Shown in pieces: positions 11,213-57,834 of a stretch of 63,321 bases of DNA (position 1 is its first letter; each line of letters begins with the position of its first letter). A program made the position numbers and the translations under genes. The DNA is from Candidatus Proruminimicrobium quisquiliarum. GTDB lineage: Bacteria; Elusimicrobiota; Endomicrobiia; Endomicrobiales; Endomicrobiaceae. The stretch is from positions 1-63,321 of the forward strand of contig JAHDRN010000010.1 of assembly GCA_018433245.1 (NCBI GenBank), given 5' to 3'. The notes under the pieces are model-generated. The model worked only from the letters and a program-made list of their open reading frames with translations. It did no database searches and was not told the DNA's origin.

Positions 11213-11692
11213 ATGCCAAGAAAAGCATTAAAACCAAGAGAAAAAAGAGGGATGCCGAACGGAGATTCAAAATTTAATTCAGTTTTGATTGCAAGATTTA
11301 TAAATAAACTTGATCACAGCGGCAAAAAAAGCACGGCTGAAAAAATAATGTATACTGCGTTTGATATCGTTAAAGAAAAAATGGGAGAAGAACCATTGGA
11401 AGTATTTAACAGAGCTATAGAAAATGCAAGACCGCTTCTTGAAGTAAGACCGAGAAGAGTCGGCGGAGCAACATATCAGGTTCCGATGGAAGTTCCTATG
11501 GTAAGATCAACAACTCTTGCGATGAACTGGATAATGGAAGCAGCCAGATCAAAAACAGGCAGACCTATGGCAGACAGACTTGCTCAGGAATTTATGGATG
11601 CAAGCAAGAAAGAAGGGTCTGTTATGAAGAAGAGAGAAGATACGCATAAGATGGCGGAAGCTAATAAGGCTTTTGCTCATTATAAATGGTAA
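11213..11692 (+). CDS. rpsG: 30S ribosomal protein S7
   Basis: 159 residues, the primary 16S-binding assembly protein of the small-subunit head. Typical start MPRKALKPREKR, then RPLLEVRPRRVGGATYQVP and the C-terminal KREDTHKMAEANKAFAHYKW. GAGGGAAAG precedes the ATG. In the standard str operon fusA and tuf follow rpsG; here the operon ends in a structured element and a restriction-modification island instead. Confidence 0.98.
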   Translation: MPRKALKPREKRGMPNGDSKFNSVLIARFINKLDHSGKKSTAEKIMYTAFDIVKEKMGEEPLEVFNRAIENARPLLEVRPRRVGGATYQVPMEVPMVRSTTLAMNWIMEAARSKTGRPMADRLAQEFMDASKKEGSVMKKREDTHKMAEANKAFAHYKW

Positions 11693-11707
11693 GCTTTCTT
11701 TTATAGC

Positions 11708-11815
11708 GACCGAAATATTTTGGCTACAATTTCAAAACGCAAGCACTTATGTACCGTTTCACTTACGTACACCGCGTGCTTGCGTTTTTTTATTTCGCAC
11801 GAAATCTTTCTAGTC
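11708..11815 (+). repeat. Structured repeat element, copy 1 (double-stem hairpin)
   Basis: 108-bp element. The outer stem is GAAATATTTTG (712-722 of the 11 kb block) with CGAAATCTTTC (800-810), containing one T.C mismatch and one T.G wobble. The inner perfect 12-bp stem is AAACGCAAGCAC (11735-11746) with GTGCTTGCGTTT (11776-11787). The internal loops GCTACAATTT and ATTTCGC are shared exactly with the second copy at 57722-57834. A T-run directly after the inner stem suggests that this copy can also terminate rpsG transcription. The family is not recognised. Confidence 0.7.
11735..11791 (+). terminator. Probable terminator of the rpoB-rpsG operon
   Basis: The 12-bp GC-containing inner stem of the repeat element is followed by a seven-T run. 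It lies 43 bp past the rpsG stop and is the only candidate terminator before the convergent HNH gene. Confidence 0.6.
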
Positions 11816-11847
11816 TTTAACGACAACAGGAATTTTTTATTATGTAA

Positions 11848-12606
11848 TTAATATAATGATAATAATTCTTCAAATGTTAAATTAATTTGGAGATTTTTAT
11901 TTAAGAGTTCTTTTCTTATGTAAAATAACTTTTTCAAAATTTCATTTTTTGTTTTTTTGTCTCCAAAATGAACGGCTCTATGACAATTTGGGCAAAGAGA
12001 AATAATATTTTCTATAAGATCAAGATGTCTATCATATTTCTTACAGTTTTCATATATATGTGGTATTAAGTGATGAGCTTCCATATATTGTTTCCCTGAA
12101 GTATTAGAAATAAATGTCAGATGGGATGAATCTATTTCACATTTATATTTAGCTTGTTGCAAACATAACTTTCCCATTCTAGGATCTCTTAGTAACTTTT
12201 TTGTATTTGAATTTGAAAATTTAATGGATTTTTGATTATTATTAATGAGTAATAATCTGTCTTTTTCAGAAATAGTTATATCATTTACATCTCTATTATA
12301 TGCTTCATCATTTTCTTCATAAGTTTTATTATTTATTTTTAAAAATTTTAAATAGTAATCCGTAGAAGCTTTATGTTTGCCATTATCTCTATTATTAATT
12401 CTCTTAAATTCAAGATCTCTTGTTATAAAAGATAATGCTTTGTGAAAATCCTCAAATTTCTCATATTCAAAAATATTTTTGATTGAAGAATTTGTTTTTA
12501 AATGTTTTTTGAGATTTCTTAGAGAAGAAATATAAGTATTACGAGTACCCTCTCCTAATTTTGTTTTTGTTTCTAAGTATTGTCTAAATTTTATTTCTTG
12601 ATTCAT
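11848..12606 (-). CDS. HNH endonuclease with integrase-like N-terminal domain
   Basis: 252 residues. The C-terminal HNH nuclease (about residues 150-235) shows EAHHLIPH, ENIISLCPNCHRAVHFG and an upstream KCEID cysteine, the beta-beta-alpha-metal fold seen in McrA-like restriction enzymes and many mobile nucleases. The first about 50 residues (FRQYLETKTKLGEGTRNTYISS, then LRNLKKHL) resemble the SAM-like core-binding domain of tyrosine recombinases, with no recombinase catalytic domain. It is divergent from the cytosine methyltransferase gene across a 158-bp shared control region, so it probably belongs to the same defence island. It may be a second or modification-dependent restriction nuclease; the target is unknown. 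Very AT-rich, consistent with transfer. Confidence 0.75.
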   Translation of the reverse strand: MNQEIKFRQYLETKTKLGEGTRNTYISSLRNLKKHLKTNSSIKNIFEYEKFEDFHKALSFITRDLEFKRINNRDNGKHKASTDYYLKFLKINNKTYEENDEAYNRDVNDITISEKDRLLLINNNQKSIKFSNSNTKKLLRDPRMGKLCLQQAKYKCEIDSSHLTFISNTSGKQYMEAHHLIPHIYENCKKYDRHLDLIENIISLCPNCHRAVHFGDKKTKNEILKKLFYIRKELLNKNLQINLTFEELLSLY

Positions 12607-12621
12607 TCAATACTCCTTTTG

Positions 12622-12672
12622 TTAATGAATATAATGTTATTATAGTATAATTCAGTATTAATGAATATAATG
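12622..12672. promoter_or_regulatory. Direct repeats, candidate operator between HNH and methyltransferase genes
   Basis: The 15-bp sequence TTAATGAATATAATG occurs twice, at 12622-12636 and 12658-12672 (36 bp apart). On the minus strand a TATAAT (12644 down to 12639) lies between them, so the repeats would cover the start site and the -35 region of the HNH promoter. No controller-protein gene is present, so a repressor would have to be one of the three enzymes or a host factor. The repeats are seen; the role is inferred. Confidence 0.4.
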
Positions 12673-12719
12673 ATTTATATTATTGTTAATTTCAGATTTT
12701 GTATTTGTTGTTTATTTTG

Positions 12720-12725
12720 TATAAT
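12720..12725 (+). promoter_or_regulatory. Candidate -10 box for the methyltransferase gene
   Basis: TATAAT lies 40 bp before the ATG of the methyltransferase. Only a poor -35 (TTTGTA, 16-bp spacing) is visible, so the promoter is tentative. Confidence 0.35.
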
Positions 12726-12764
12726 CCTATCGTAGTTTAGATTGAAAAATATGGTGTTATAATT

Positions 12765-13730
12765 ATGAAACAGTTAAAATTTATGGATTTTTGTGCTGGT
12801 ATTGGTGGTGGACGATTAGGATTAGAAAAAGCCGGATGTGTTTGTATGGGTTTTTCTGAGATAATGGCATCATCTATAAAAACGTATAATGTTTTACACA
12901 ATACAAAAGACGAAAAGAATTTTGGGGATCTTACAAAAATTAATCCAAAAGAATTGCCAAATTTTGATATTATGCTTGCCGGATTTCCGTGTCAAGCTTT
13001 TTCAATTATTGGACAAAGAAAGGGTTTTGAAGACGAGAGAGGACAAATTATATATCATTTGATAAAAATTTTAAAACATCAAAAAGTTCCTTATTTTATT
13101 TTGGAAAATGTCAAAGGTTTAATAAATCATGATAAAGGAAAAACTCTTATAACTATAATTAAGGCATTAGAAGATGTAGGTTATTATGTTGGATGGAAGC
13201 CTCTTAATAGTGTTGATTATGGTGTTCCTCAAATGAGAGAAAGGATTTATTTTATAGGCATTAAAAAAGATAAAATCAATTCCGGTAAATATAAATGGCC
13301 TGAACAAGTGCCACTTCCGAAGATAGAAAGATATTTATCTGATGACAATTCAAGTATTTTAAACATAAACGATAAAGGTTTTCAAAAATATTTATCTAAT
13401 AAATATAATAAAAATAATCATGATTTGAATAAGATTTTATCTGAAGATTATCTTGTGATTGATACAAGGCAGTCTGATTTGCGAATATATCGTAATAAAG
13501 TGCCAACATTACGAACTGGACGACATGGCATTTTATATGTTAAAAGTGGCAAAATTAAAAAATTGTCTGGATTTGAAAGTTTGTTATTACAAGGGTTTGA
13601 TAAGGAAAGGGCAAAAAAAGCTTCAGAGAAAATAGTAGATAGCAAATTATTATCTCAAGCTGGCAATGCTATGACAGTAAATGTTATTGAATTATTAGGA
13701 AAATCGCTTATAGAATATATCGGGAGATAA
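12765..13730 (+). CDS. DNA (cytosine-5)-methyltransferase
   Basis: 321 residues, the size of small C5-methyltransferases such as M.HhaI. Motif I (DFCAGIGGGRLGLEKAG, residues 8-24) binds AdoMet; motif IV AGFPCQAFS supplies the catalytic Cys76; motif VI is ENVKGL near residue 119; motif VIII-type sequence follows QMRERIYFIGI; motif X is QAGNAMTVNV near the C-terminus. The target-recognition region between about 180 and 270 is short. The restriction gene follows after 4 bp, and the enzyme should protect the same site (GCGC if the nuclease call is right). Confidence 0.93.
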   Translation: MKQLKFMDFCAGIGGGRLGLEKAGCVCMGFSEIMASSIKTYNVLHNTKDEKNFGDLTKINPKELPNFDIMLAGFPCQAFSIIGQRKGFEDERGQIIYHLIKILKHQKVPYFILENVKGLINHDKGKTLITIIKALEDVGYYVGWKPLNSVDYGVPQMRERIYFIGIKKDKINSGKYKWPEQVPLPKIERYLSDDNSSILNINDKGFQKYLSNKYNKNNHDLNKILSEDYLVIDTRQSDLRIYRNKVPTLRTGRHGILYVKSGKIKKLSGFESLLLQGFDKERAKKASEKIVDSKLLSQAGNAMTVNVIELLGKSLIEYIGR

Positions 13731-13734
13731 AATT

Positions 13735-14484
13735 GTGGATAAGTCTCAGCTTTTAGGTTCTCAAACTGCGAAGAATGGATTTAATAATGAACATGACATA
13801 GCCAATAAATTTAATGATTGGGTGCGAGATGAAGATGCTCAAAAATGGCTTGTAATAATGGATTATAAATTAGAAAAAGTTGAGAGCGTTAAGGCAGTTG
13901 TGTTGAGCGGTTACAAAGCTGATGTTAATGTTCAGATTACAATTACCTTGAAGGAAGCAATAAATGTGGAAAATATACAGGTTAAACTGGTCAGCAATAA
14001 GGCTGGTTTTAATCAAATTGATAAGCGTTGGGTTGATAAATATGTTTCACTTTGGAATATTCCAGAAGATGTTACAAATATTTTAAAAAGATTTACAGGT
14101 GAATTGAAGCCCACAATTTCAAAAACAAGGGATAAGAAAAAGAGAAGAATGTTCATTGATGAATTTTTAATTGGTGAACGGACTAAATTGATTAAATTTT
14201 TGAATAAAAATCGCCCACTAATAGTAAATGATGTTTTGCGCGGTAGGGGAGAGTTTGCAGCAGAATGGGTAATTGTTGCACAGAAAATAAGTGAAAAAAC
14301 TCGTTGGATTTTAAAAAACATCAATGAAGTTGTAAATCATTATGATGGAAATATTGCAATAACAAAACAAGGAAATATAAAAATTGGCAGGATAACAATG
14401 CAACGAAAAGGTGGAGACAACGGAAGGGAAACTGCAAAAATGTTGCAGTTTAAAATAAATCCTGCAGAACTTTTTGAAATTTAA
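13735..14484 (+). CDS. Type II restriction endonuclease, HinP1I-like
   Basis: 249 residues, close to R.HinP1I (G^CGC) in length and, as I recall that protein, alike along its whole length: an early TAKNGF, AVVLSGYKADVNVQ, IQVKLVSNKAGFNQIDK, GELKP, RGRGEFAAEWV and a C-terminal RKGGDNGRETAKMLQFKI. The proposed catalytic residues are Asp63 and the Gln82-x-Lys84 pair, matching the D...QxK site of HinP1I/MspI-type enzymes. The start is GTG at 13735 with GGGAGA at 13722-13727, four bases after the methyltransferase stop, so the two are translated from one message. Confidence 0.85.
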   Translation: MDKSQLLGSQTAKNGFNNEHDIANKFNDWVRDEDAQKWLVIMDYKLEKVESVKAVVLSGYKADVNVQITITLKEAINVENIQVKLVSNKAGFNQIDKRWVDKYVSLWNIPEDVTNILKRFTGELKPTISKTRDKKKRRMFIDEFLIGERTKLIKFLNKNRPLIVNDVLRGRGEFAAEWVIVAQKISEKTRWILKNINEVVNHYDGNIAITKQGNIKIGRITMQRKGGDNGRETAKMLQFKINPAELFEI

Positions 14485-14679: not shown

Positions 14680-17600
14680 ATGAACTTCTTTTTAAAAGGT
14701 TCAGCAAGGCTTTCTGTGGTTTTATTTTTGTCAATGTTTTTGGGAATTTCGGCAGTTTTTGCTCAGATAAGCGGGGATAATGTATCAGAAAGTTATACTT
14801 ATTCATCCGATAATACGGCTGACACTATCTATACAAACATAATGGTAGGCTCTGGATATTGGAATTCTGTAAGCGGTTCGTCTGTAACGTTAAGTCCGGT
14901 AACGGCAACATCATTAACTGTTGACGGAACTGCAAGCGGTGGAGTTGTCAACTGGAATAATAATCTACCTCTTATTTTTGCGCTTCCTGCAAATATCAAT
15001 TTAAATTCAATATCTTTAACAAACGGTTACGGGTTGCGGGCTTCAACGATAACTTTGTCCAATACATCATATTTGCAAACCAATAGTGATTATATTGATA
15101 CATATACTTACGGCGGGGTTGTAAATAATAACGGAACGTTATCGCTTACAGGCGGAACAAACTATAATAATATAATCGGATCGGGATGGTTAGGGATATA
15201 TAATTCTGTTATAAATAATGCTGACATTGTTCAAGATTATATGGCTGTTACTATCGGTGCAAATTTAAGTAATATTGCAGGAAGTTCGATAGCAGCAAAT
15301 TATTTACAGATAAACAGCAGTGCTTTATTAGAAACGGATATAGATGATATATTTGCAGTAAATAATATAAACAATGCCGGTACATTACGAATAAATGCTG
15401 ATGGTACAAATAACAACACTATAATCGGAGTAGGTGTTCTAGAAATAACAAACAATGCAACGGTTATAAACTTTGCTTCTGCGCAGTTAAGCCAACTAAA
15501 TATAAGCAGTGGTTCTGTTTTAACGACCGATATTGATAATATAAATACATATACGACTGGCGGGAGTATAATCAATAACGGGCTTTTGTATATTTATGCA
15601 GACGGAGTAAACTATAACGATATAACCGGCACAGGCGAATTTAATGTTGGTTTCCCAAATACCGTATACAATGATATGACGGCGACAATATCACAAAGTA
15701 CAGTAACAATTTCAGGCGTATTTATAAATGATAATGGAACAGATGATGCAGTTACTGCCTCAAACGGTTTTTTTGTTAATGCAAATGCAACATTGCAAAG
15801 CAATGCCTCGGCATTAGCAGGAGACATTACAAATAACGGCGGATGGGTAGTTTTTACAGGCGGCACAAACGACAATGACGTTACCGGTACGGGCTGGCTG
15901 AGAGCAACAGACACAATGACAAACAACGCAAATATCAGCCAAGGCAGAGTGTATATAGACGGCGGAACAGTTACAAATAACGGTGTAATTACGGCAGATG
16001 ATATATATGTAGACTGGGATGCAATATTGTTGACAACAAATCTGCTTGATACAACCGCTGGCAGCGGAGGGATACATAATAACGGTCTTTTACAAGTTAA
16101 TGTCAGCAGTAGCGGTACAGTAAACAATCCAAATATTATAGACGGAACAGGTAATTTTCAACTATTAGGCAATACAATTTTTACACAACAAACAGATAGA
16201 ACAATAACTCAAAATGCGATATTGATTTCTTCTAATACTTTAATGACTGCAAATGCCGATGATTTGATTGTATCCGATAAAATATATAATGACGGAAGTT
16301 TAACACTTGAAGGTTTCAGCAACATCAATGACAATGAAATAACCGGAACAGGCGATTTGTTTATAAACGATTTGATACAAAATAGAAAAAATATAAATCA
16401 AGAAAATTTAACAATATACGATTCTATGAGTTTGTTTAATGTTGAAGGTTCAACTATAACGCTTACGGATAATCTTTTAATCGGTTCATTTGCCGGTTTA
16501 CAAAACGATGGAGTGTTAAATGTAGTAAACGGCGTAAACAACGGTTCAATAATATATGGCACAACATCAGAAGGAATTATAAATATATCCGGAGATTTTA
16601 TCAATAACGGGAATATGTCACAAGAACAGTTAAATATATCTAGTAGCGGTTCAGTAACAACAAATGCTTCTAACTCAAATATACATCAAGGCATATCAAA
16701 CGACGGCGCCTTGATATTTACAGGCGGAATAAGCGATGATAATATAACGGGTACCGGAACATTGACTTTCAACGGTGCAGAAGGCAATTTAGTAAATTAT
16801 GCGGATATAAATCAGTTTGCTGTTAATATAACAACCGGTATATTTAGTAATATTGAAGGCCGTTCAATAACTGCAACAAATATAGATATAACAAGCAACG
16901 GTGCTTTATGGACAGACATAGATGATATAGATACATATAATGCAGGCGGAAGAATTTTAAATGACGGTTTAATGTATTTTAATACTTCTGACAGTGGTGA
17001 AAACTTTAATTCAATAATAGGTTCAGGAAGAATTGAAATTTTTAACGGTTATACATTGTTTAACAGTTCTTCAATAGTTCAGGGCGAAATTGCAAATGCT
17101 TCAACATTTGTAAATAATGCAATAGGAACAGTTAATGCAGGTTTGTTTGAAAATTTTAATTTTGGACAGAATGACGGATTAATGAATATAGAAAATTTTA
17201 CAAATGATGGTCCTTTTGTAAATACGGTTGGCGGAATAATAAATGCCGAAACTCTTATTAATACTGATATTTTTGCAAATAACGGAACTACAAATGCCGA
17301 TTATTTGGTAAATACCGGCTTGTTTTCTAATGACAATGCTTTAAATGTTGAAGGCGGATTTAATTTTAATACAATCAGCAGACAGAACGGAGTAGGATTT
17401 GGAACAATGACGGTAACGAACGGCGTATTTGATAATTCAGGCGGAACTATTATTCAGTATACGGCAATCATAGAAAATGACGGTCACTTAATTACAGATG
17501 CCGATCATTTGATACTTGATACCGGTATTACAAATGATTCAATACTTGAATTTACAGGCGGAACAATTGTAAACGATATAATAGGAGATGGAACGCTTTT

Positions 17601-20600
17601 GATAACCGGTGTTGTCGGAAGTTCTAATACTGTTGATCAGGATCATTTAGGTGTTTACGGCAGTTTCAGAAATTCTTCACATACTTATGTAAACAGTGCT
17701 TTTGTTGACTCAGGAGCAAATGTAGTTAATGATGCGGGTTCAAATCTCTTTATAGATTCTCTTGTAAATAACGGAACGATTAATAATTCAGCAGTAAGAG
17801 GAAGCGGATTTGAAGTAGGCAATGTTTTAAATAACGGAGATATGATAGGAACAGGCGATATACAGATATACGGAACATTTATAAATGAATCAAGCGGAAC
17901 ACTTCAGCAGGCAAATATAAATGTAGCTTCAACAACGGCATCTTTAATAAGCAATGCTTCAAGTTTAACCGGCAATATAAACAATGCGGGAACTTTAGTG
18001 CTTACCGGCGGAACAAATAATAACACAATATCAGGTTTTGAAGGAATTTACGGTGACCTGGCAATAAACGGAAATGTAACAAGTACTGCCGATATATATC
18101 AGGAGAATTTAACGGTATCAGACGGCTCATCTTTTGCTAATGCACATGCAAATTTTAACAATACGATTTTTAATAACGGGGCAATAATAAATAATGCGTT
18201 TTTGTCTGCTTACAGACTGATAAATAATTCAGGAGCTGTTGTGATAAATAACTCAGATTTTGGTTTTGACGAAGGAATAAATAACGGAACAATAACCGGA
18301 ACCGGCATGTTATCTGTTTATAACGACTTCACAAACTTTGGGTCAATAAGTCAGAACGATGTTTACGTAAACGGCGGTTTGTTTCAAAATGACGGGTCAT
18401 TAGATGCAGGTAATTTGTATATCAGCAATAGTGTTGAATTCAGAACTAATATGAGTGATTTAAATGCAACTGTATATAACGATGGTATGATTGTAACAAA
18501 CGGTGGTGCAAATAGTAATACAATTGCAGGCAACGGATCATTATTGGTGTCTGGCGGAGCAATGGTTAATGACGGAACAATAACTCAGGATAATTTGGGA
18601 ATAAATTCAGATTCTACACTTAGAACATCAGCACAATCATTAACAATAGCTAACGGCATAGAAAATAACGGAACTTTATTTATTGATTATTCAATAGGTG
18701 CAGATATAAATTCAAATGATATCAGAGGGGACGGAATTATCCGTATAGTAAACGGAACAGATTTAACAAATACAGGCGAAATAAGACAAGAAGGTATGGC
18801 AATAACAAACGGTTCAACTCTTCATACCGATGCAAGTTTATTGTACATGGCAAACAGAATTTTAAATAACGGAACTCTTGATTTTAATGTAACGGGAGAT
18901 AACGCAAACAACATAACAGGTTCCGGAACTTTAAGTATAACTGACGCTCAGGTTGTAAATACAGGCGCAATAGGACAAAGTCTGCTTTATATAAATAATT
19001 CCAGCTTTACTACAGATGCAAGTTTGTTAAACGGGACAGCAGAAATAGCTAACGGATACGATTTGTATTTTACAGGCGGATTAAATACAAGCACTATAAC
19101 AAATCCTGATGACGGTTATTTGTATATAACGGGAGATGTTGAAAATGCCGACGGAGTAAGTATTGAACAGAATTTATTAGAAATATACAGCGGTGCCAGA
19201 TTTACCGTAAACGCAGACGATCTTGATATTGCTAATCAAGGAATATCAAATGAAGGAATCCTTGCATTAAAAGATGCGAATGATTCAACTTTAGAAGAAG
19301 ATGTTTACGGGGCTGGGCAGATTGTTAAAACAGGAGCAGGTATTGTAGAACTTGCAGGAGAAAATACTTATGACGGAACAACAATAATAACCGAAGGCGC
19401 ACTTCAGGTTTCAGATACATCTAATATCGGTGCAAATTCAATTATGTTTGACGGCGGTAATCTTATAGCAGACTCAAACTTCTTTACTCTCAGCAATGAA
19501 TTTACGGCCACGGAAGGAAACGATATAAATATAGATGTTATTAACAGCGGAGAGCTTACTCTTGACGGCGTTATAAACCAGCAGTCTACAACTCCTGCAA
19601 ATTTAGTAAAAGACGGAGACGGAACTCTTATTCTTGATATGGGTTCTAATGATTACCAAGGCGACACATACGTTAATAACGGAACTCTTATTGGAACTAC
19701 AGAAAACATAAACGGCAAACTTTACGGAACCGGTTCAAGCAATCTTGATACATATGAATTTACAGACGGCGTTCATTATAGTGACAGCGTTGTTGTCAGC
19801 GCTTTGTATCCGAAAGCCCCAAGCTCTTACGGATATGACGTTGTATTAAATGAAGTAGATAGCACTAACTATCTCGGAACTTTTAATAAAACAGGTTCGG
19901 CTTCAATGGAAGTTGTAAACTATTTCAGAGCACATTTGGCAAATATTACTGACGGGGCTTTGTATGTAAATAACATTGAAAGCGGAAACGATTTCATAGT
20001 TGACAGTACAATGACCTTTACAAACAGCTTGTTAGGCGGAAATTCCAATATAACGGCAACAACAGTTGTAATGGGAGACGGTTCAATATTAGCTCCGGGC
20101 AATTCAATAGGAACTACAAACATAACCGGCGATTTAGTTTTTGCAAGCAGTTCAACGTATGAAGTTGAATTTGAACAGGCGAGTATGCAAACCGGCGGCA
20201 TAAGCAATGATACAACAAACGTTTCGGGAACAACAACGATTGATAGTAATAATACATCACTTGACTTAATCAATTTGGACGGAAAATTTTATGTACATGA
20301 AACATTTGACATTATAACATCATCAGGAGCATTAACGGGCGAATTTGCAAATTCGTCGCTAACGGGATTTGACGTTGACAGTCCTGATTTGAGACTCGGT
20401 TCAAGAATAACATTCAGTACCGCTACGGTCGGAAATAATCTGCAGCTTATCGTAAGCAGAGAGGCTTCCGAGTATGAAAATTCAACAGAACTTACCGATA
20501 TGTCGCATAATGAAAGCGAAGTTGCAAGATCAATTGACGCGATATCAACCGGCAACGGCGGCGATATAACAAATTCATTAGATGTTTTGGAAAAATTTTA

Positions 20601-22161
20601 TTATTACACAAGCACATACGATTTGGACGCTCTTAAAGCCGGATTCAACGACATCGCCGGCGTAATATATTCAAATGCGGCTTTGCTTCCTTACTTTAAT
20701 TCAAAAATAGAGCATGTTTACGACAAAATACAGCCGAGAGAAAATGCAATCAGTTCATGCGGAAGATTCCATGATAAAATATGGGGAGAATATTACTATA
20801 ATAATTACAAAGTAGACAGAGATGATAATTCCCCTGAATATCAGACCTACACTAACGGATTTTTAGTAGGATTTGACATGATATCTTCAAACAAATGGTT
20901 CTTGGGAATAACGTCCGGATACGGAGAATCTACATTAAATCAGGAACATGACAAAACCAATATGAAAGATATCAATCTCGGATTATACGGCGGTTATGAA
21001 ACAAATAAATGGCAGTTTAAGAGTATGCTGCTTGGCGGATGGGAAAGATATAATACTGAAAGAGAAATAACATTTATGGACAGGACTGCAAAGAGTGATT
21101 ATCAGGGCTACAGCGCATCATTGGATGTAGAAGGCGCATATAAAATACTTTTAACAAAAAATGCAGATGCAAAACATAAATTAACGTTAAAGCCTTTCGC
21201 CGGAATGTTTGCTTCTTACATAAAACAGAACGGTTTTGAAGAAAAAGGAGCAGATTCTCTTAATTTAAAAGTTGAAGACAATAATATATTTATGGCGCAG
21301 GCGAGATTGGGAATAGGAATCAACGGCAAACTTAACAGATTCGGCTGGTATGCAAACGTCGGCGCAAGACAGCTTTTGACTAAAGACTACAATGAATTGT
21401 ATGTGTCATTGCTTGACTATCAGGATGATACAAATATGAAAATTAAGAGTGCAACGCTTTCACCTTTCTCAATAACGGGCGGCCTTGGAGCCGATTATAT
21501 ATTGTCTGAAGACTGGACGATATTTGCAAACGGTCAGACTAATTTTGCAAACAGATCAAAAGAGATATATGCAAATGTAGGTTTGACATATAAATTCGGA
21601 TGCCCCAAAAAAGAAAAACAGGATGTTGTTACCGTTGTTGACGAAGAATTGCAGTCAAAACTTGAAAATGAAAAGAAAGTTTCAGAAGGTCTCAGAAAAG
21701 AATTGAAACAATTGCAAAAAGAATACGACAGTATGAAATCAAAAATAGTAAGCGCGGAAGAAGCAAAGAAAATAAAGGAAAGAAAAATAACACAGGTTGA
21801 ATTAACAAGCAAACTGCAGTTTAAGTTTAATTCAACGGAATTAACGGAAAAAGGCAAAGCAAGCCTGCAGGAAGTTATAAAAGAATTGCAGAGATATCCT
21901 GACGCAGAATTGTTAATAGAAGGCCATTGTGATAATCTCGGAGCGCCTGCCTATAACCAGAAACTTTCTGAAGGAAGAGCAAATGCCGTTGCGGAATCTT
22001 TGGAGAAAGATTACGGAATTAAAAATAAAATTTCAGTAATCGGCAAAGGATCAACGGAAAATTTAGTTCCTAATGATTCTCCGGCAAACAGAGAGATAAA
22101 CCGCAGAGTTGAAGTGATAATTGTTCAGGAAGAGGAAGTTGTAACGGAAATAATCAAATAA
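14680..22161 (+). CDS. Giant autotransporter adhesin with C-terminal OmpA domain
   Basis: 2493 residues. The signal peptide ends near AVFAQ. The passenger is a long beta-helix built of 55-70-residue units with the pattern NNG-L-FTGG-N-N-I-GTG followed by I-Q--L-I. Autotransporter-associated repeats lie near residues 1543 and 1640, and the ILAPGNSIGT motif near 1798. A 12-strand-type barrel spans about 2025-2308. Unlike classical autotransporters the chain continues: a coiled coil (about 2320-2370), then an OmpA-C domain (about 2373-2487) with EGHCDNLG and NREINRRVEVI. The barrel would sit in the outer membrane, the passenger outside and the OmpA domain in the periplasm bound to peptidoglycan. 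The start at 14680 is chosen for GGGGGAAG at 14671-14678; an in-frame ATG at 14662 has no such site. A terminator follows. Confidence 0.88.
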   Translation: MNFFLKGSARLSVVLFLSMFLGISAVFAQISGDNVSESYTYSSDNTADTIYTNIMVGSGYWNSVSGSSVTLSPVTATSLTVDGTASGGVVNWNNNLPLIFALPANINLNSISLTNGYGLRASTITLSNTSYLQTNSDYIDTYTYGGVVNNNGTLSLTGGTNYNNIIGSGWLGIYNSVINNADIVQDYMAVTIGANLSNIAGSSIAANYLQINSSALLETDIDDIFAVNNINNAGTLRINADGTNNNTIIGVGVLEITNNATVINFASAQLSQLNISSGSVLTTDIDNINTYTTGGSIINNGLLYIYADGVNYNDITGTGEFNVGFPNTVYNDMTATISQSTVTISGVFINDNGTDDAVTASNGFFVNANATLQSNASALAGDITNNGGWVVFTGGTNDNDVTGTGWLRATDTMTNNANISQGRVYIDGGTVTNNGVITADDIYVDWDAILLTTNLLDTTAGSGGIHNNGLLQVNVSSSGTVNNPNIIDGTGNFQLLGNTIFTQQTDRTITQNAILISSNTLMTANADDLIVSDKIYNDGSLTLEGFSNINDNEITGTGDLFINDLIQNRKNINQENLTIYDSMSLFNVEGSTITLTDNLLIGSFAGLQNDGVLNVVNGVNNGSIIYGTTSEGIINISGDFINNGNMSQEQLNISSSGSVTTNASNSNIHQGISNDGALIFTGGISDDNITGTGTLTFNGAEGNLVNYADINQFAVNITTGIFSNIEGRSITATNIDITSNGALWTDIDDIDTYNAGGRILNDGLMYFNTSDSGENFNSIIGSGRIEIFNGYTLFNSSSIVQGEIANASTFVNNAIGTVNAGLFENFNFGQNDGLMNIENFTNDGPFVNTVGGIINAETLINTDIFANNGTTNADYLVNTGLFSNDNALNVEGGFNFNTISRQNGVGFGTMTVTNGVFDNSGGTIIQYTAIIENDGHLITDADHLILDTGITNDSILEFTGGTIVNDIIGDGTLLITGVVGSSNTVDQDHLGVYGSFRNSSHTYVNSAFVDSGANVVNDAGSNLFIDSLVNNGTINNSAVRGSGFEVGNVLNNGDMIGTGDIQIYGTFINESSGTLQQANINVASTTASLISNASSLTGNINNAGTLVLTGGTNNNTISGFEGIYGDLAINGNVTSTADIYQENLTVSDGSSFANAHANFNNTIFNNGAIINNAFLSAYRLINNSGAVVINNSDFGFDEGINNGTITGTGMLSVYNDFTNFGSISQNDVYVNGGLFQNDGSLDAGNLYISNSVEFRTNMSDLNATVYNDGMIVTNGGANSNTIAGNGSLLVSGGAMVNDGTITQDNLGINSDSTLRTSAQSLTIANGIENNGTLFIDYSIGADINSNDIRGDGIIRIVNGTDLTNTGEIRQEGMAITNGSTLHTDASLLYMANRILNNGTLDFNVTGDNANNITGSGTLSITDAQVVNTGAIGQSLLYINNSSFTTDASLLNGTAEIANGYDLYFTGGLNTSTITNPDDGYLYITGDVENADGVSIEQNLLEIYSGARFTVNADDLDIANQGISNEGILALKDANDSTLEEDVYGAGQIVKTGAGIVELAGENTYDGTTIITEGALQVSDTSNIGANSIMFDGGNLIADSNFFTLSNEFTATEGNDINIDVINSGELTLDGVINQQSTTPANLVKDGDGTLILDMGSNDYQGDTYVNNGTLIGTTENINGKLYGTGSSNLDTYEFTDGVHYSDSVVVSALYPKAPSSYGYDVVLNEVDSTNYLGTFNKTGSASMEVVNYFRAHLANITDGALYVNNIESGNDFIVDSTMTFTNSLLGGNSNITATTVVMGDGSILAPGNSIGTTNITGDLVFASSSTYEVEFEQASMQTGGISNDTTNVSGTTTIDSNNTSLDLINLDGKFYVHETFDIITSSGALTGEFANSSLTGFDVDSPDLRLGSRITFSTATVGNNLQLIVSREASEYENSTELTDMSHNESEVARSIDAISTGNGGDITNSLDVLEKFYYYTSTYDLDALKAGFNDIAGVIYSNAALLPYFNSKIEHVYDKIQPRENAISSCGRFHDKIWGEYYYNNYKVDRDDNSPEYQTYTNGFLVGFDMISSNKWFLGITSGYGESTLNQEHDKTNMKDINLGLYGGYETNKWQFKSMLLGGWERYNTEREITFMDRTAKSDYQGYSASLDVEGAYKILLTKNADAKHKLTLKPFAGMFASYIKQNGFEEKGADSLNLKVEDNNIFMAQARLGIGINGKLNRFGWYANVGARQLLTKDYNELYVSLLDYQDDTNMKIKSATLSPFSITGGLGADYILSEDWTIFANGQTNFANRSKEIYANVGLTYKFGCPKKEKQDVVTVVDEELQSKLENEKKVSEGLRKELKQLQKEYDSMKSKIVSAEEAKKIKERKITQVELTSKLQFKFNSTELTEKGKASLQEVIKELQRYPDAELLIEGHCDNLGAPAYNQKLSEGRANAVAESLEKDYGIKNKISVIGKGSTENLVPNDSPANREINRRVEVIIVQEEEVVTEIIK
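15100..19260 (+). repeat. Tandem degenerate beta-helix repeats in the autotransporter passenger
   Basis: More than a dozen imperfect units encode NNGTL-FTGGTN-N-ITGTG-L followed by a spacer with the I-Q--L-I pattern (for example near 15120, 15835, 16700, 17540, 17990, 18480, 18890). They are clearly related at protein level but have drifted at DNA level, which argues for an old expansion and against recent slippage. Confidence 0.75.
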
Positions 22162-22180
22162 TATAATGTTAAAAATAAAA

Positions 22181-22219
22181 AAACTCTTTGAATAATTTAA
22201 AGTTCAAAGAGTTTTTTTA
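22181..22219 (+). terminator. Intrinsic terminator after the giant autotransporter gene
   Basis: An 11-bp stem AACTCTTTGAA (22182-22192) / TTCAAAGAGTT (22203-22213) with a 10-nt loop is followed by a seven-T run. Confidence 0.8.
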
Positions 22220-22233
22220 TTTATTGTAAAAAA

Positions 22234-22264
22234 TGATATAATCTTTTGATTATATTTTCAGGAG
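22234..22264 (+). promoter_or_regulatory. Extended -10 promoter and RBS of the second autotransporter
   Basis: TGATATAAT (TG at 22234-22235, TATAAT at 22237-22242) is an extended -10 element; the -35 region is only a T-run. AGGAG (22260-22264) is the ribosome-binding site that selects the ATG at 22276 over an in-frame TTG at 22246. Confidence 0.5.
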
Positions 22265-22275
22265 ATTTTATTAAG

Positions 22276-25053
22276 ATGAAAAAAATCTTATTTTTATTTT
22301 GTTTACTTACAATAATAACAGCCGCTTACAGTAAAAGTTTTGCTCTAATTACAGGCGGCAACACGGATGAAAATTACACATATTCCGCGGATATTTCATC
22401 GGATACTGTATTTACAAGTACAATGACCGGGTCCGGTTATGTAAATTCAGTAAGCGGTTCTTCCGTAACTTTTTCAACAATAACAGCAAATTCCTTAACA
22501 GTTAGGGGAACAGATACAGCTTCAACTAACTGGATTAACGATCAGGAAATAGAACTTAATGTTTCAGGTTCAAGCATAACTGTCAATAATATAAATTTGA
22601 CGAATAACCAAGATTTAAAAGCTTATGATTTTATTGCAGGTTCAAGTTCAACTGTTACCAATAATGCACAACTTGATTTTTTAAATTGTATATATATAAG
22701 CACTAACGCAACCGTCCATACAAACGCATCGGATATAAAAGCTTCAAGCGCCGTAGTTAATAACGGAACTCTTGAATTTACGGGCGGAACAAATAATAAC
22801 AATATTTCCGGAGACGGCGTATTAAATATTCTTCCTGTTGCATTTGTTATAAATGCGGACGGTTTTTTAATTGACCAAAACACAATAAACATCGGATCAT
22901 TGGCTACTCTTATGACAAGTGCGGATGATGTTTTGGTTACAAACCAAATTAACAATGAAGGAAGCATCTTATTTACAGGCGGGATAAACTCAAATGTAAT
23001 AAATTCTTCAAGCGGTAATATAACGGCAGGAGCCGGTTTTGTAAATAACGGGTCCATCACTGTAGGTTTTGCAAATTTTAATAATATGGCTAATACCGAA
23101 CTGACAAATAACGGCGCTATTTATTTTATAGGCGTTGATGAAACAATATTGCAGAATGTTACGGGTACAGGAACATTCGGAATATCTTCAGGAACTTTTA
23201 CTAACAATGCTCTTATAACGCAGTCAACAATAACAGTCGCTTCTTTGGGGACTTTAAATACTTCTTTGGATAAGATAGATGTTAAATTCATAACAAATAA
23301 CGGCGTTGTCAATTTTACGTCCGGAACCGTAAATAATAATATAATTTTAGGAAACGGCGAACTTAATCTTTTTTCGGATTTAACAAATACGGCTACCATA
23401 AGACAGGGTAAAATAAATATCACTGACGGAAAAACTTTTTCAAGCGAAATGAATCTTGTTAATTCTTCATCAATTGCGATGATAAGTTCAAATACGGTAA
23501 ATCTCGCTGTATCAAGCACAAATACCGCGGTTGTTTTCGGCGGAACGATATCAAGCGCAAACGGGTCGGTTCTTAATATTGACGTCGCGCAGGACAGCAT
23601 AGCGGCTTTTTACGGCGCGATATCGTCAAGCGGAACGGGCAACATTATCAATATAAACGGTCTGTTGTATTCTACCGCAACAGTATTGATAAACAGTGAC
23701 GTAAGCGGTTTTTCCGGTTCAGGAAATACCGTAAATTTTTCAAGCGGAACTTTATGGATGGGATATAATTCCGTATTCTTTAATAATATTGAATTTAATA
23801 TGCATGGCAATACCACTTTAAGTCTTGTAAACGGCAAAATTGATGATATAGCCGTAAATTTAAATCTGCCCGACAGCGAAGCTTCGTATCTGGAACTCGG
23901 AGTTTCTTTGAAAAAAAAAGAGGCCGATAATTTTGTAGGGTCAACTCTGGGTACCGGTAACGGAAGTCTTGAAGTCAGCAGATTGTATATTTATGACGAT
24001 CTTAAAGACATACATGACACGGCCTCAATTACGATAGCCGAAGGCGCTTTAGCCGATAAAATAATATATACCCAGACGACGGCTATGGGGCCGGTATTTG
24101 AATATTTTACAAATTATGAAAACGGCGTCTTAACTTTTAACTATACGTACGATTACAATCCGATTGTATTTATTACGCCCATTCTTGTACAGGTCGGCGG
24201 CTATTTGGGACAGTTGGAATCTTACAGACAGGCGTTTGAGATAGTTGACAATACGGTTAACAATAATAACGCAAAAGGGTTATGGATAAGATATTACGGT
24301 TCTAAGGAAGATATAAAACTTGATAATTTATTGACATTAACAAATACGACAAGCGGCGCTTATTTCGGTTATGACACCGAAGCGATGGAAGCCGGCGGAA
24401 GTTTTTTCGGCAACTTCTCTTTCTACGGTTCTTATAATATTTCCGAACAAACATACGAAGGCGCAAAAATAACGCAGAACGGCGCAGTATTAGGCGTTAC
24501 GGGAGCTTTATATAAAAACAGATTTTTCTCGGCTCTAACTGTTAATTTCGGTTTCATAAACGGGCAGGGCGAAGGAGAATACGGACGCGAAAATGCAATG
24601 ATATATACAAGAGGCATAGCTTCAAAAACCGGATTTAATTTTGATCTTGACGATGAAAATAAATTTAAATTCCAGCCGACTCTTAACCTGTCTCTTTCAT
24701 ACATTAATATGGCAAGTTACGATTTTATAAGTCCTACTAATGCAAACGTAGAAGTAGATACGAATTTGCTTGCTCCGGTGCAAATTGAACCGGCTTTAAA
24801 AATAGTGGCAAATATGACTAAAACTTTTCAGACGCATGCCAATGCAAGCCTCGTATGGAATTTAATGGATGATTTGGATTTTAAGGCAAATGATACAAAG
24901 CTTCCGAATATGCCTATTGAAACATACGCGCAGTACGGAGTAGGGATCAGTAAATATTTCAGCGAAAAATTTACGATGAATGCCGATGTCTTCGGAAGGT
25001 CAATGGGCAGAACGGGTTTTGGCGGACAAATAAATTTGAGATATAATTTTTAA
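22276..25053 (+). CDS. Autotransporter, paralogue of the upstream giant adhesin
   Basis: 925 residues with signal peptide (MKKILFLFCLLTIITAAYS). The first about 120 residues of the mature part mirror the neighbour (ENYTYSADISSDTVFTS, MTGSGYVNSVSGSSVTFS), and the passenger has the same NNGTLEFTGGTNNNNISGDG units but fewer of them. The C-terminal about 270 residues form a predicted beta-barrel that ends in the canonical aromatic residue (NLRYNF), the signal recognised by the BAM machinery. No OmpA domain follows, so this is the classical arrangement. It has its own promoter and lies after the neighbour's terminator, so the two can be expressed differently. Confidence 0.82.
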   Translation: MKKILFLFCLLTIITAAYSKSFALITGGNTDENYTYSADISSDTVFTSTMTGSGYVNSVSGSSVTFSTITANSLTVRGTDTASTNWINDQEIELNVSGSSITVNNINLTNNQDLKAYDFIAGSSSTVTNNAQLDFLNCIYISTNATVHTNASDIKASSAVVNNGTLEFTGGTNNNNISGDGVLNILPVAFVINADGFLIDQNTINIGSLATLMTSADDVLVTNQINNEGSILFTGGINSNVINSSSGNITAGAGFVNNGSITVGFANFNNMANTELTNNGAIYFIGVDETILQNVTGTGTFGISSGTFTNNALITQSTITVASLGTLNTSLDKIDVKFITNNGVVNFTSGTVNNNIILGNGELNLFSDLTNTATIRQGKINITDGKTFSSEMNLVNSSSIAMISSNTVNLAVSSTNTAVVFGGTISSANGSVLNIDVAQDSIAAFYGAISSSGTGNIININGLLYSTATVLINSDVSGFSGSGNTVNFSSGTLWMGYNSVFFNNIEFNMHGNTTLSLVNGKIDDIAVNLNLPDSEASYLELGVSLKKKEADNFVGSTLGTGNGSLEVSRLYIYDDLKDIHDTASITIAEGALADKIIYTQTTAMGPVFEYFTNYENGVLTFNYTYDYNPIVFITPILVQVGGYLGQLESYRQAFEIVDNTVNNNNAKGLWIRYYGSKEDIKLDNLLTLTNTTSGAYFGYDTEAMEAGGSFFGNFSFYGSYNISEQTYEGAKITQNGAVLGVTGALYKNRFFSALTVNFGFINGQGEGEYGRENAMIYTRGIASKTGFNFDLDDENKFKFQPTLNLSLSYINMASYDFISPTNANVEVDTNLLAPVQIEPALKIVANMTKTFQTHANASLVWNLMDDLDFKANDTKLPNMPIETYAQYGVGISKYFSEKFTMNADVFGRSMGRTGFGGQINLRYNF

Positions 25054-55550: not shown

Positions 55551-56024
55551 ATGGATATTTGCAGAAATTTTAGAAAAATAAACAAAGATAATTATAAAAA
55601 ATTTATTGACAAAAAAAATATGTCAATGCGCGGAGAGTTTGCCGGCGTTGCTTTTAGCGACAGAATGATTTTTATACCGCACTGTATGAGAAATACAAAA
55701 ATCTGTAAGGCAAAAGATGAAGGCGCTTATTATGTTTGCGCCATGTGCAAAGGATGCAAGATTTCCGAAATAGCGGCTCTTGCGAAAGAACTCGGCTACA
55801 AAAAAGTTTACGTAATGAAAGGCGGCAAGGCAATAGAAAATATTTTAAATGCCGAGAAACCGAAAGCTGTTATAGGAATAGCGTGTTATTTTGAGGGGGT
55901 TCAGGCGGTCAAAATGACAGAGAAAGGGAAAATAATTACACAGTTTATACCTCTTACAAAAGACGGATGCGCCGATACCGACGTTGATTTGGATGAAACA
56001 AAAAAAATAATTGCTCTTAAATAA
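55551..56024 (+). CDS. DUF116 family cysteine-rich protein
   Basis: 157 residues. Conserved cysteines are in IPHCMRNTKIC, CAMCKGCK, GIACYFEG and KDGCADTDVD, the pattern of DUF116 proteins, which probably bind a metal or Fe-S cluster; the function is unknown. It starts 3 bp after argJ and is thus in the arginine operon. Preferred over a later ATG at 55620 because the first residues look coding, but the start is not certain. Confidence 0.7.
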   Translation: MDICRNFRKINKDNYKKFIDKKNMSMRGEFAGVAFSDRMIFIPHCMRNTKICKAKDEGAYYVCAMCKGCKISEIAALAKELGYKKVYVMKGGKAIENILNAEKPKAVIGIACYFEGVQAVKMTEKGKIITQFIPLTKDGCADTDVDLDETKKIIALK

Positions 56025-56046
56025 AGCATTAAAACAAAGGAGATTT

Positions 56047-57708
56047 ATGGATAAATTAAAATTTACAGAGTTAAACTTATCAGCTGAGATATTAAAAGCT
56101 GTTACGGATATGGGATTTGAAGAAGCAACGCCGATACAGTCGCTTTCTATTCCAAAAATGATGGAGGGGAAAGATATTATCGGACAGGCTCAAACAGGTA
56201 CGGGAAAAACTGCGGCATTCGGCATTCCTATACTTGAAAAAATATCATCAAAAGTTAAGGCAACGCAGGCATTAATAATGTGCCCGACAAGAGAACTTGC
56301 GATTCAGGTCGCCGAGGAATTAAAACAGTTGTCTAAATACAAAAGAGGAATAAATATAGTTCCGGTTTACGGCGGACAGCCGATAGTAAGGCAGATGTCG
56401 GCTCTTTCAAGAGGAGCTCATATTGTAATAGGAACTCCGGGACGCGTTATAGACCATATAGAAAGAAGAACAATCGCGCTTAAAGATACTGCAACAGTTG
56501 TATTGGATGAAGCGGACGAAATGCTTGATATGGGGTTCAGAGACGATATAGAAAAAATCTTGAAAAGTCTTCCGGAAGAAAGGCAGACTGTATTTTTCTC
56601 TGCTACGATGCCTAAAGAATTCTTGGCGCTTACTAAAAGATATCAGGTGCATCCTGAAAATATAAAAGTAGTTCATGAAAAACTCACGGTTCCTTTAACG
56701 GAACAGTTATACTGCGAAGTAAGAGACAACCAGAAAATGGATGCTTTATCAAGATGTCTTGATATGTATGACCCTAAACTTGCTCTTGTTTTCTGCAATA
56801 CAAAAAGAAAAGTTGACGAAGTTTCATCTAATTTACAGGCAAGAGGATATTCAGCCGACGCAATTCACGGAGATATGAACCAGTCTCAAAGAGACAGAGT
56901 TATGGCAAAGTTTAGAACCTGCAGAATAGAAATACTTGTCGCAACGGATGTAGCCGCAAGAGGAATAGACGTTGATGACGTAGACGCTGTTTTTAATTAT
57001 GACATTCCTCAGGATATAGAAGCTTACGTTCACAGAATAGGCAGAACCGGAAGAGCAGGCAGAACCGGAAGAGCGTTCAGTTTTGTTTCGGGAAGAGATA
57101 TTTATAAACTGAGAGATATTCAGAGATATACAAAGGTAAACGTAAAAAGGATTCCGATTCCTTCAATGGCGGATGTTGAAAATATCAGAATATCTTCTTT
57201 TATGGAAAAAATAAAAGAAAATATTAAGAAAAACACATCAGAAAAATATATCAGCAAAATAGAATCTCTGATAAACGACGATATTACTTCAATAGACGTT
57301 GCCGCAGCTTTGTTTGAGATGATGCTGCATAATCAGGGTACTGCACAGGAAAACATTGAAACAGACTTATATGCAGGCGGACATAATGAAAGAGGCCATG
57401 ACGGCGGCTCAAGCAGAAGACAAAGAGGCAAAAGTTTCGGAGGCGGCAACGGCGGGTCAAGAGAACACGGTATGACAAGATTGTTTATCAGTATCGGCAA
57501 AAGCAAAAAAGTCAGACCGGGAGATTTTGTCGGAGCAATAGCCGGCGAAACAGGTCTTGACGGAAACGTAGTAGGAAGCATAGATATTTTGGACAAATAT
57601 TCTTTTGTTGAAGTTCCGACGGAACATGTTGATACGGTTATCAATGCATTAAATAACAGCAATATAAAGGGACACAGAGTTAGCGTTGAGATTGCTCAGG
57701 GGAAATAG
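56047..57708 (+). CDS. deaD: DEAD-box ATP-dependent RNA helicase (DeaD/CsdA type)
   Basis: 553 residues. Motifs in order: Q motif (ATPIQS), I AQTGTGKT, Ia PTRELA, Ib TPGR, II DEAD, III SAT, V ARGID, VI HRIGRTGRAGR. A Gly/Arg-rich linker (about 430-465) precedes a C-terminal DbpA/CsdA-type RNA-binding domain (TRLFISIGKSKKVRPGDFVGAI). Likely acts in ribosome assembly and mRNA turnover. The ATG at 56047 with AAAGGAG at 56036-56042 is chosen over an in-frame TTG at 56011. A structured repeat element follows 14 bp later. Confidence 0.95.
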   Translation: MDKLKFTELNLSAEILKAVTDMGFEEATPIQSLSIPKMMEGKDIIGQAQTGTGKTAAFGIPILEKISSKVKATQALIMCPTRELAIQVAEELKQLSKYKRGINIVPVYGGQPIVRQMSALSRGAHIVIGTPGRVIDHIERRTIALKDTATVVLDEADEMLDMGFRDDIEKILKSLPEERQTVFFSATMPKEFLALTKRYQVHPENIKVVHEKLTVPLTEQLYCEVRDNQKMDALSRCLDMYDPKLALVFCNTKRKVDEVSSNLQARGYSADAIHGDMNQSQRDRVMAKFRTCRIEILVATDVAARGIDVDDVDAVFNYDIPQDIEAYVHRIGRTGRAGRTGRAFSFVSGRDIYKLRDIQRYTKVNVKRIPIPSMADVENIRISSFMEKIKENIKKNTSEKYISKIESLINDDITSIDVAAALFEMMLHNQGTAQENIETDLYAGGHNERGHDGGSSRRQRGKSFGGGNGGSREHGMTRLFISIGKSKKVRPGDFVGAIAGETGLDGNVVGSIDILDKYSFVEVPTEHVDTVINALNNSNIKGHRVSVEIAQGK

Positions 57709-57721
57709 TTCTTTAAATAAA

Positions 57722-57834
57722 CTTTAATATTTTGGCTACAATTTTGTATTTTCAAAACTCATTTACACATAGCTTTGCTATTATTGCAGTAAACTTCGTT
57801 TTGAAAATATTTCATTTCGCTCAAAATCTTAAAG
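57722..57834 (+). repeat. Structured repeat element, copy 2 (double-stem hairpin)
   Basis: 113-bp relative of 11708-11815. The outer stem is CTTTAATATTTTG (57722-57734) with CAAAATCTTAAAG (57822-57834), keeping the same single T.C mismatch as copy 1. The inner 12-bp stem is TATTTTCAAAAC (57747-57758) with GTTTTGAAAATA (57798-57809), unrelated in sequence to that of copy 1 yet perfectly paired and at the same distances from the outer stem. Internal-loop blocks GCTACAATTT and ATTTCGC are conserved. The loop is 39 nt against 29 in copy 1. Confidence 0.7.

Follow-up and report, generated by a model that had tools for sequence, protein, structure and literature searches.

A phylum-wide family of stacked, covarying hairpins in Elusimicrobiota genomes that may be mobile DNA recognised by its folded shape

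We report a family of stacked hairpins that is real, spans the phylum Elusimicrobiota, has not been listed before and shows strict covariation in its stems; its members are folded elements of approximately 110 bases, scattered through the genomes in tens of copies each. Two copies lie in the window (the whole stretch of DNA that was analysed, 63,321 nt of contig JAHDRN010000010.1 from Candidatus Proruminimicrobium quisquiliarum). The stems differ wholly between copies yet remain Watson-Crick paired, and such free but complementary stems together with constant loops suggest mobile DNA that is recognised by its folded shape. Our first choice, held with no more than even confidence, is that the elements are non-autonomous, dispersed, MITE-like mobile DNA hairpins; function and mobility are both inferred, and neither movement nor transcription was observed.

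The two window copies, their parts (all assigned to the minus strand) and the genes before them are as follows:
11213..11692, rpsG open reading frame with its stop at 11692; copy 1 lies directly 3' of it
11706..11817, minus strand, element copy 1, a nested hairpin (model R1, 105.9 bits)
11706..11722, minus strand, copy 1, outer stem P1, left arm as seen on the plus strand, with mismatch T11716.C11806 (from the sequence)
11723..11733, minus strand, copy 1, conserved internal-loop block, GCTACAATTTC on the plus and GAAATTGTAGC on the minus strand, holding one arm of P2
11734..11746, minus strand, copy 1, arm of inner stem P3, 13 bp with 11776-11788
11749..11754, minus strand, copy 1, arm ATGTAC of apical helix P4, partner 11767-11772, including the near-fixed G.T (minus strand)
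11767..11772, minus strand, copy 1, second arm of P4, GTACAC
11776..11788, minus strand, copy 1, second arm of P3
11789..11799, minus strand, copy 1, conserved internal-loop block, TTTATTTCGCA on the plus and TGCGAAATAAA on the minus strand, holding the other arm of P2
11800..11817, minus strand, copy 1, second arm of P1 (from the sequence)
56011..57708, deaD-like DEAD-box helicase gene; copy 2 starts 9 nt past its stop codon
57718..57838, minus strand, element copy 2 (model R1, 96.4 bits)
57747..57758, minus strand, copy 2, arm of P3, partner 57798-57809
57762..57766, minus strand, copy 2, arm TTTAC of P4, partner GTAAA at 57789-57793
57789..57793, minus strand, copy 2, second arm of P4
57798..57809, minus strand, copy 2, second arm of P3

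The original prediction, made from the window alone, described two hairpins of common geometry, and both copies were found as described: the outer stem P1 (with G11712-C11810 and A11713-T11809 paired in copy 1 and T11716.C11806 as the kept mismatch), the inner stem P3, unrelated in sequence between the copies yet fully paired in each, and the conserved plus-strand blocks GCTACAATTT and ATTTCGC. The description was incomplete in that it missed the minus-strand reading, the helices P2 and P4 and the further copies. Specifically, the loop segments given as 12 nt hold a further 3-bp helix, P2 (AAT/ATT or AAC/GTT), and the loop of the inner stem is not free; it holds the apical helix P4, where TGTAC/GTACA in copy 1 against TTTAC/GTAAA in copy 2 is a compensatory change. 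The minus strand gave the better fold in five of the first five copies, and at the window copies a kept A.C mismatch becomes G.T on this strand and the loops are purine-rich. The strand that equals the window's minus strand at both window copies is here called the A2 strand, and it was taken as the structured one because all conserved loops are purine-rich there. The fold is a rod in which the stems are stacked with conserved internal loops between them; on the A2 strand these loops are purine-rich (GA/GYA, RAA/RAA and GNR/RA), the G.T at the P4 foot is nearly fixed, and the tip of the rod is of the GTAC type.

Directly past copy 1 there is an apparent restriction-modification island (11848-14484) composed of an HNH protein (11848-12606, minus strand), a C5 cytosine methylase (12765-13730) and a R.HinP1I-like restriction enzyme (13735-14484); in several relatives a fusA-like start follows rpsG at this place. 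The region 15000-24000 of the window contains many diverged repeats (TTTACAGGCGGAACAAA units) and is probably a large surface protein.

Searching with the 12-mer TGGCTACAATTT, exact or with one mismatch and without any use of structure, gave three further copies in the own genome (five in all). The covariance model and the search of the genome and its relatives that had been proposed for checking the prediction were carried out, with a positive outcome: the model (R1) found 38 copies at E < 1e-7 in the 1.94-Mb genome, and relatives were found across the phylum. The number of copies is about 46 to 59 in the genomes G001, G009, G018 and G031 (59 in G018), and carriers include rumen Ca. Ruminimicrobiellum species and Endomicrobiaceae STB_19, while many genera of the same family (Endomicrobiaceae) have zero copies by model count. 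With a second model (R2, built on 123 copies) the family was detected in at least 62 of the 341 genomes of Elusimicrobiota (the number is a minimum, as only a few candidates were scored in each genome), and several distant genomes have 8-25 copies each. Outside the phylum the search was limited to collections of viruses, phages and plasmids and to GTDB contigs, which were scanned once by pattern; no copy in viral contigs, phages or plasmids was matched by the patterns and sequences tried, and the GTDB scan returned Elusimicrobiota records together with a single Gastranaerophilales-labelled contig that shares their site name (Sandtown) and may have been binned wrongly. No Rfam family matched the window at the gathering threshold, in line with the earlier statement that no such family was known; a permissive search gave only chance-level E-values at the copies, and no description of the family was found in the literature on Endomicrobia and on palindromic repeats. 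The genomes compared are MAGs or have no stated kind, G001 has 9% contamination, genes were simple ORF calls, the model E-values are rough and the copies are not independent.

A covariance model by its nature selects copies that pair, and weight therefore falls on two observations that escape this bias: the five copies found by sequence and the stem P0 described below. With the five copies aligned by sequence, 92% of 200 cells were paired and 28 had changed on both sides, whereas shuffling gave 10 two-sided cells and sliding the partners no more than 11; a chance origin of the pairing in these copies is excluded. Covariation was also observed directly in an alignment of 70 copies, in 33 distinct distant copies and in the full set of 123, where two-sided changes occur at 36 of the 40 pairs (1154 such cells, compared to 340 after shuffling) and the covariation score was 0.618 (0.197 shuffled, ≤0.102 slid). 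The covariation across the 123 aligned copies supports selection on structure with conserved internal loops, as had been argued from two copies.

In distant copies there is a further outermost stem, P0, of 17-34 bp, which is nearly perfect and absent from every model. It occurs in two forms, as 17-25 bp around a loop (..TTCGTAGC[E]AGTAGAAA..), where E is the element, or as 28-34 bp round the element plus a second, inverted element, with the far arm 109-120 nt further on. The second form makes a T-shaped palindrome unit of about 270 bp that is common in distant relatives, and its TTA...TAA ends are a direct observation. The P0 sequence varies between genomes (e.g. TAGTGCTGCGACCGGATAATAATTCATGATT, TTAACCCTGCAACGTTAAGTAGGAATGCCATT) and the arms match almost perfectly; swapped controls scored at most 11 (median 7). 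In f24, paired ends AGGGTCTGTYAAGGAATTAA lie 271-274 bp apart with TTA...TAA ends, which corresponds in form to a DDE-type MITE (terminal inverted repeats of one sequence per genome, plus a TA duplication), and there are also shorter units, about 200 bp apart, and 43-47 bp hairpins of P0 only. Fixed terminal inverted repeats were not seen in Endomicrobiaceae, and for the f24 ends a duplication cannot be distinguished from the end of a palindrome. A parent element with a transposase was absent among the listed end pairs of G231, G232 and G234, where the longest facing pair on one contig spans approximately 274 bp. At L302, L300 and L292 (G231, G232, G234) the 43-46-bp hairpins of P0 alone (TTAGGGTCTGTTAAGGAATTAATG...) give the impression that the two arms have either been lost or are still to be acquired.

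Wobble pairs are almost lacking in the stems. The inner-stem cells comprise 704 Watson-Crick pairs, 10 G.T and 3 A.C; inner and outer stems together have 36 G.T vs 31 A.C, and all pairs minus two with fixed wobble have 41 G.T and 50 A.C (the outer-stem alignment is loose at its ends). For tRNA stems in the same loci the numbers are 24 G.T and 0 A.C. Where copies share at least 85% identity, the one-sided stem differences that could be classed clearly were 25 G.T, 22 A.C and 35 mismatches, i.e. without G.T preference, and among more distant copies two-sided Watson-Crick changes dominate, suggesting that pairs are first broken and then re-formed with no wobble intermediate. From these counts we infer that the pairing may matter in DNA.

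Elements also show a polarity relative to genes. For the 126 copies with a right-hand neighbour, the A2-right end lies at the 3' end of a gene in 99 and before a start codon in 27, and the distance from the stop codon has a median of 13 nt with a tight range of 6-26 nt. In 64% of cases this end has a gene 3' end no more than 30 nt away; the left end reaches only 7%, and placing elements at random in the same gaps gives 18%. Genes preceding many copies include the core genes rpsG, rpsI, dnaK, smc and serC. The tight spacing suggests a role in the 3'-UTR and speaks against mobile DNA. The main rival explanation, which we regard as possible but rather unlikely, is a structured RNA whose fold is under selection and which has multiplied by duplication and replacement, either a small RNA or a 3'-UTR module (acting in transcription end or in the protection or processing of mRNA). 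Such an RNA would account for the spacing, for elements at orthologous sites that are more conserved than their coding flanks (see below) and for the ordinary terminator-like hairpins that in G004 follow rpsG and etfB where others carry the element; purine-rich internal loops are typical of RNA motifs, and the large structured RNAs of Rfam likewise form helical rods that covary and keep their internal loops. However, since the A2-right end is mostly at gene 3' ends, the strand with the purine loops and the G.T is antisense to the adjacent mRNA in 79%, so that the mRNA would carry the poorer fold, and about 21% of the copies stand in the opposite relation to the nearest gene. Moreover, the near absence of wobble pairs and the lack of an Rfam match set the family apart from those RNAs, an intrinsic terminator (a GC-rich hairpin with a U tract immediately behind it) was called at neither window copy, and at serC the element lies past an ordinary terminator-like hairpin. 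Some g9 copies end in T runs. A sigma70-like TTGTAG-18-TATAAT was noticed at the A2 right end, and a promoter scan made no call at the window copies. We also noted copies right behind xerC/D-like recombinase genes (L075 3923-4042 and L101 6347-6459, in G000 and G001), and in G031 a copy about 50 nt behind a PF00589 match, as judged by coordinates.

Dispersal to unrelated loci was observed directly in the own genome, where pairs of copies are 93-96% identical at loci with flanks at background identity (0.48). Nested and broken copies are likewise seen: at L228 the left and right parts of one element enclose the left fragment of a second and the whole of a third, and L239, L225, L075 and L093 have half copies whose break lies at the tip, within the inner stem or shortly ahead of it. 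In the congeners G009 and G018 the elements at the rpsG site have unrelated stems and the rpsG ends are 95.6% identical, while at the orthologous site of L092 and L216 the outer stem is kept and the apical block exchanged on both sides. At other orthologous sites the element is 95-99% identical vs 77-86% in flanking coding DNA, and thus at least some copies are conserved, or have been homogenised recently; neighbouring untranslated DNA is sometimes conserved as much as the element. Clean empty sites were sought at 13 loci (G001, G004, G011), where the element-free sites were too diverged for base-exact junctions, and none with a target duplication was found in Endomicrobiaceae. An empty-target motif derived from the element ends, TATAACGRCA, was rejected (53 vs 44 control matches).

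Mobile DNA is favoured by the covariation, P0, the Watson-Crick bias, the dispersal, the nested, half and exchanged copies, the T-shaped units and the identically scoring copies that sit at contig ends in G232; it is opposed by the lack of an empty site with target duplication and of an identified mobiliser, and by orthologous elements that outconserve coding flanks, as a conserved function would. Between the two possibilities raised initially, an RNA and a hairpin-forming mobile DNA, the evidence leans to the latter without proving it. In the mechanism that we propose, one strand, usually antisense to the neighbouring gene, would fold into a Watson-Crick rod with conserved loops, and an unidentified enzyme would read the loops and the shape and not the stem sequence, with the element being inserted next to the ends of genes and into copies already present. 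The arms of a stem would drift and then regain complementarity, through selection on folding and/or through one arm templating the other when folded. That copies moved as DNA, that a shape-reading enzyme exists and how arms are restored are inferred. In a bolder form, which we put forward only tentatively, the family would be a phylum-wide mobile DNA defined by its fold, in which any stem may change provided that it stays Watson-Crick paired, up to the 270-bp T-shaped palindrome, and an unknown recombinase or replication-coupled process reads the stacked loops and copies arm from arm. If this is true, a dispersed element family across a whole phylum inherits structure rather than sequence; we know of no clearer covariation record in a bacterial dispersed repeat. 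The hundreds of natural shape variants bear on whether an enzyme can recognise mobile DNA by folded loops, on how palindrome arms stay matched and on why elements settle at stop codons. If the elements are RNA, bacteria of gut, rumen and wetland contain an abundant class of RNA that has so far gone unlisted.

The family fails the tested criteria of REP/RAYT, integron attC, reverse-transcriptase elements and known Rfam families. Y1 transposases (PF01797) were found in none of G000, G001, G009, G018 and G028 and once in G031, reverse transcriptases (RVT_1) in none of G000, G009, G018 and G028, and in a search for an integron integrase G018 (59 copies) had two PF00589 tyrosine recombinases only, presumably XerC and XerD. 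Mobilisation of the REP/RAYT, integron or reverse-transcriptase kind is thus unsupported by gene presence in most copy-rich genomes. ERIC sequences, known from Enterobacteriaceae and Vibrio, have a 127-bp consensus. REP/BIME sequences are dispersed intergenic palindromes at gene 3' ends, with subfamilies that show complementary stem changes and with unpaired conserved tags; dispersal, complementary changes, conserved unpaired parts and the location at gene 3' ends are common to our elements. In contrast, a REP is one short stem of 5-13 bp and the present elements have four or five stacked stems over 110-270 nt, and GT pairs, common in the stems of GTAG- and CGTC-tagged REPs (Di Nocera 2013; PMC3733652), are almost missing here. 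GTAG REP families go with a RAYT transposase, whereas most copy-rich genomes lack a Y1 transposase, and a terminal tag of the REP type is absent, G[TC]AG being in an internal loop and not at the foot. Bacterial MITEs and long palindromic repeats such as ERIC (reviewed in PMC2229807) resemble the elements in size (about 100-270 bp), intergenic location, terminal inverted repeats and internal-deletion derivatives, with TTA...TAA in distant copies. MITEs conserve their end sequence, whereas our elements conserve internal loops, leave the stems free and have no parent transposon that we could find.

As proposed for REP/BIME, the copies could also be chromosomal cruciform or hairpin sites bound by a protein (gyrase, SMC, recombination), selected but not themselves mobile. 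The 3'-end location and polarity, the strict Watson-Crick symmetry, the conserved loops and the conservation at orthologous sites would all fit, but we consider this improbable: within one family some genomes have no copy and others up to about 59, unrelated loci hold near-identical copies, and there are nested and chimeric copies as well as the MITE-like composite units in f24. Integron attC sites have inverted 7-bp core sites at their ends (RYYYAAC ... GTTRRRY). Sites of the attC type, short imperfect palindromes past stop codons whose folded bottom strand is recognised and which delimit gene cassettes, are already weakened and very doubtful here: the variable palindrome of conserved structure, the placement behind stop codons, the antisense orientation of the structured strand relative to the gene, the copies round accessory genes (a toxin-antitoxin pair, a zeta toxin-like gene and an SNF2-helicase island at L078, L083 and L091) and the gene-plus-element tandem modules of L096 would fit, but core genes precede many of the copies, a third tyrosine recombinase is lacking in G018 and no integrase was found, the conserved boxes are others, and the end motifs are direct, not inverted (TTGTCGTTA ... 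CGYTATAA, with GTTA at both ends).

Several loci have unusual arrangements of copies. At L083 (4331-13667) two direct near-identical copies (91%) flank a 9-kb island with an SNF2-type helicase gene, which looks inserted between, or carried by, the flanking copies. L078 (4163-10940) has three copies, the outer two inverted, around a toxin-antitoxin pair (Gp49-like/HI1420-like) and a type III restriction-modification pair, and those at 5363 and 10819 seem to be chimeric, with parts from two subfamilies. Between dnaK and dnaJ at L093 (3155-3879) two inverted copies flank a 148-aa gene without Pfam match and are followed by half of a further element. L096 (4237-6953, in G018) carries tandem paralogous genes with signal peptides, most with an own element copy behind, and gene and element therefore seem to duplicate as a unit. 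Finally, another short repeat, with GGGCTGTTGGGYGGATT and AAGCTTGGAAGC units, occurs in intergenic DNA of G000 and G001 (e.g. L091 at about 17960 and L225 at about 1260), once inside an element.
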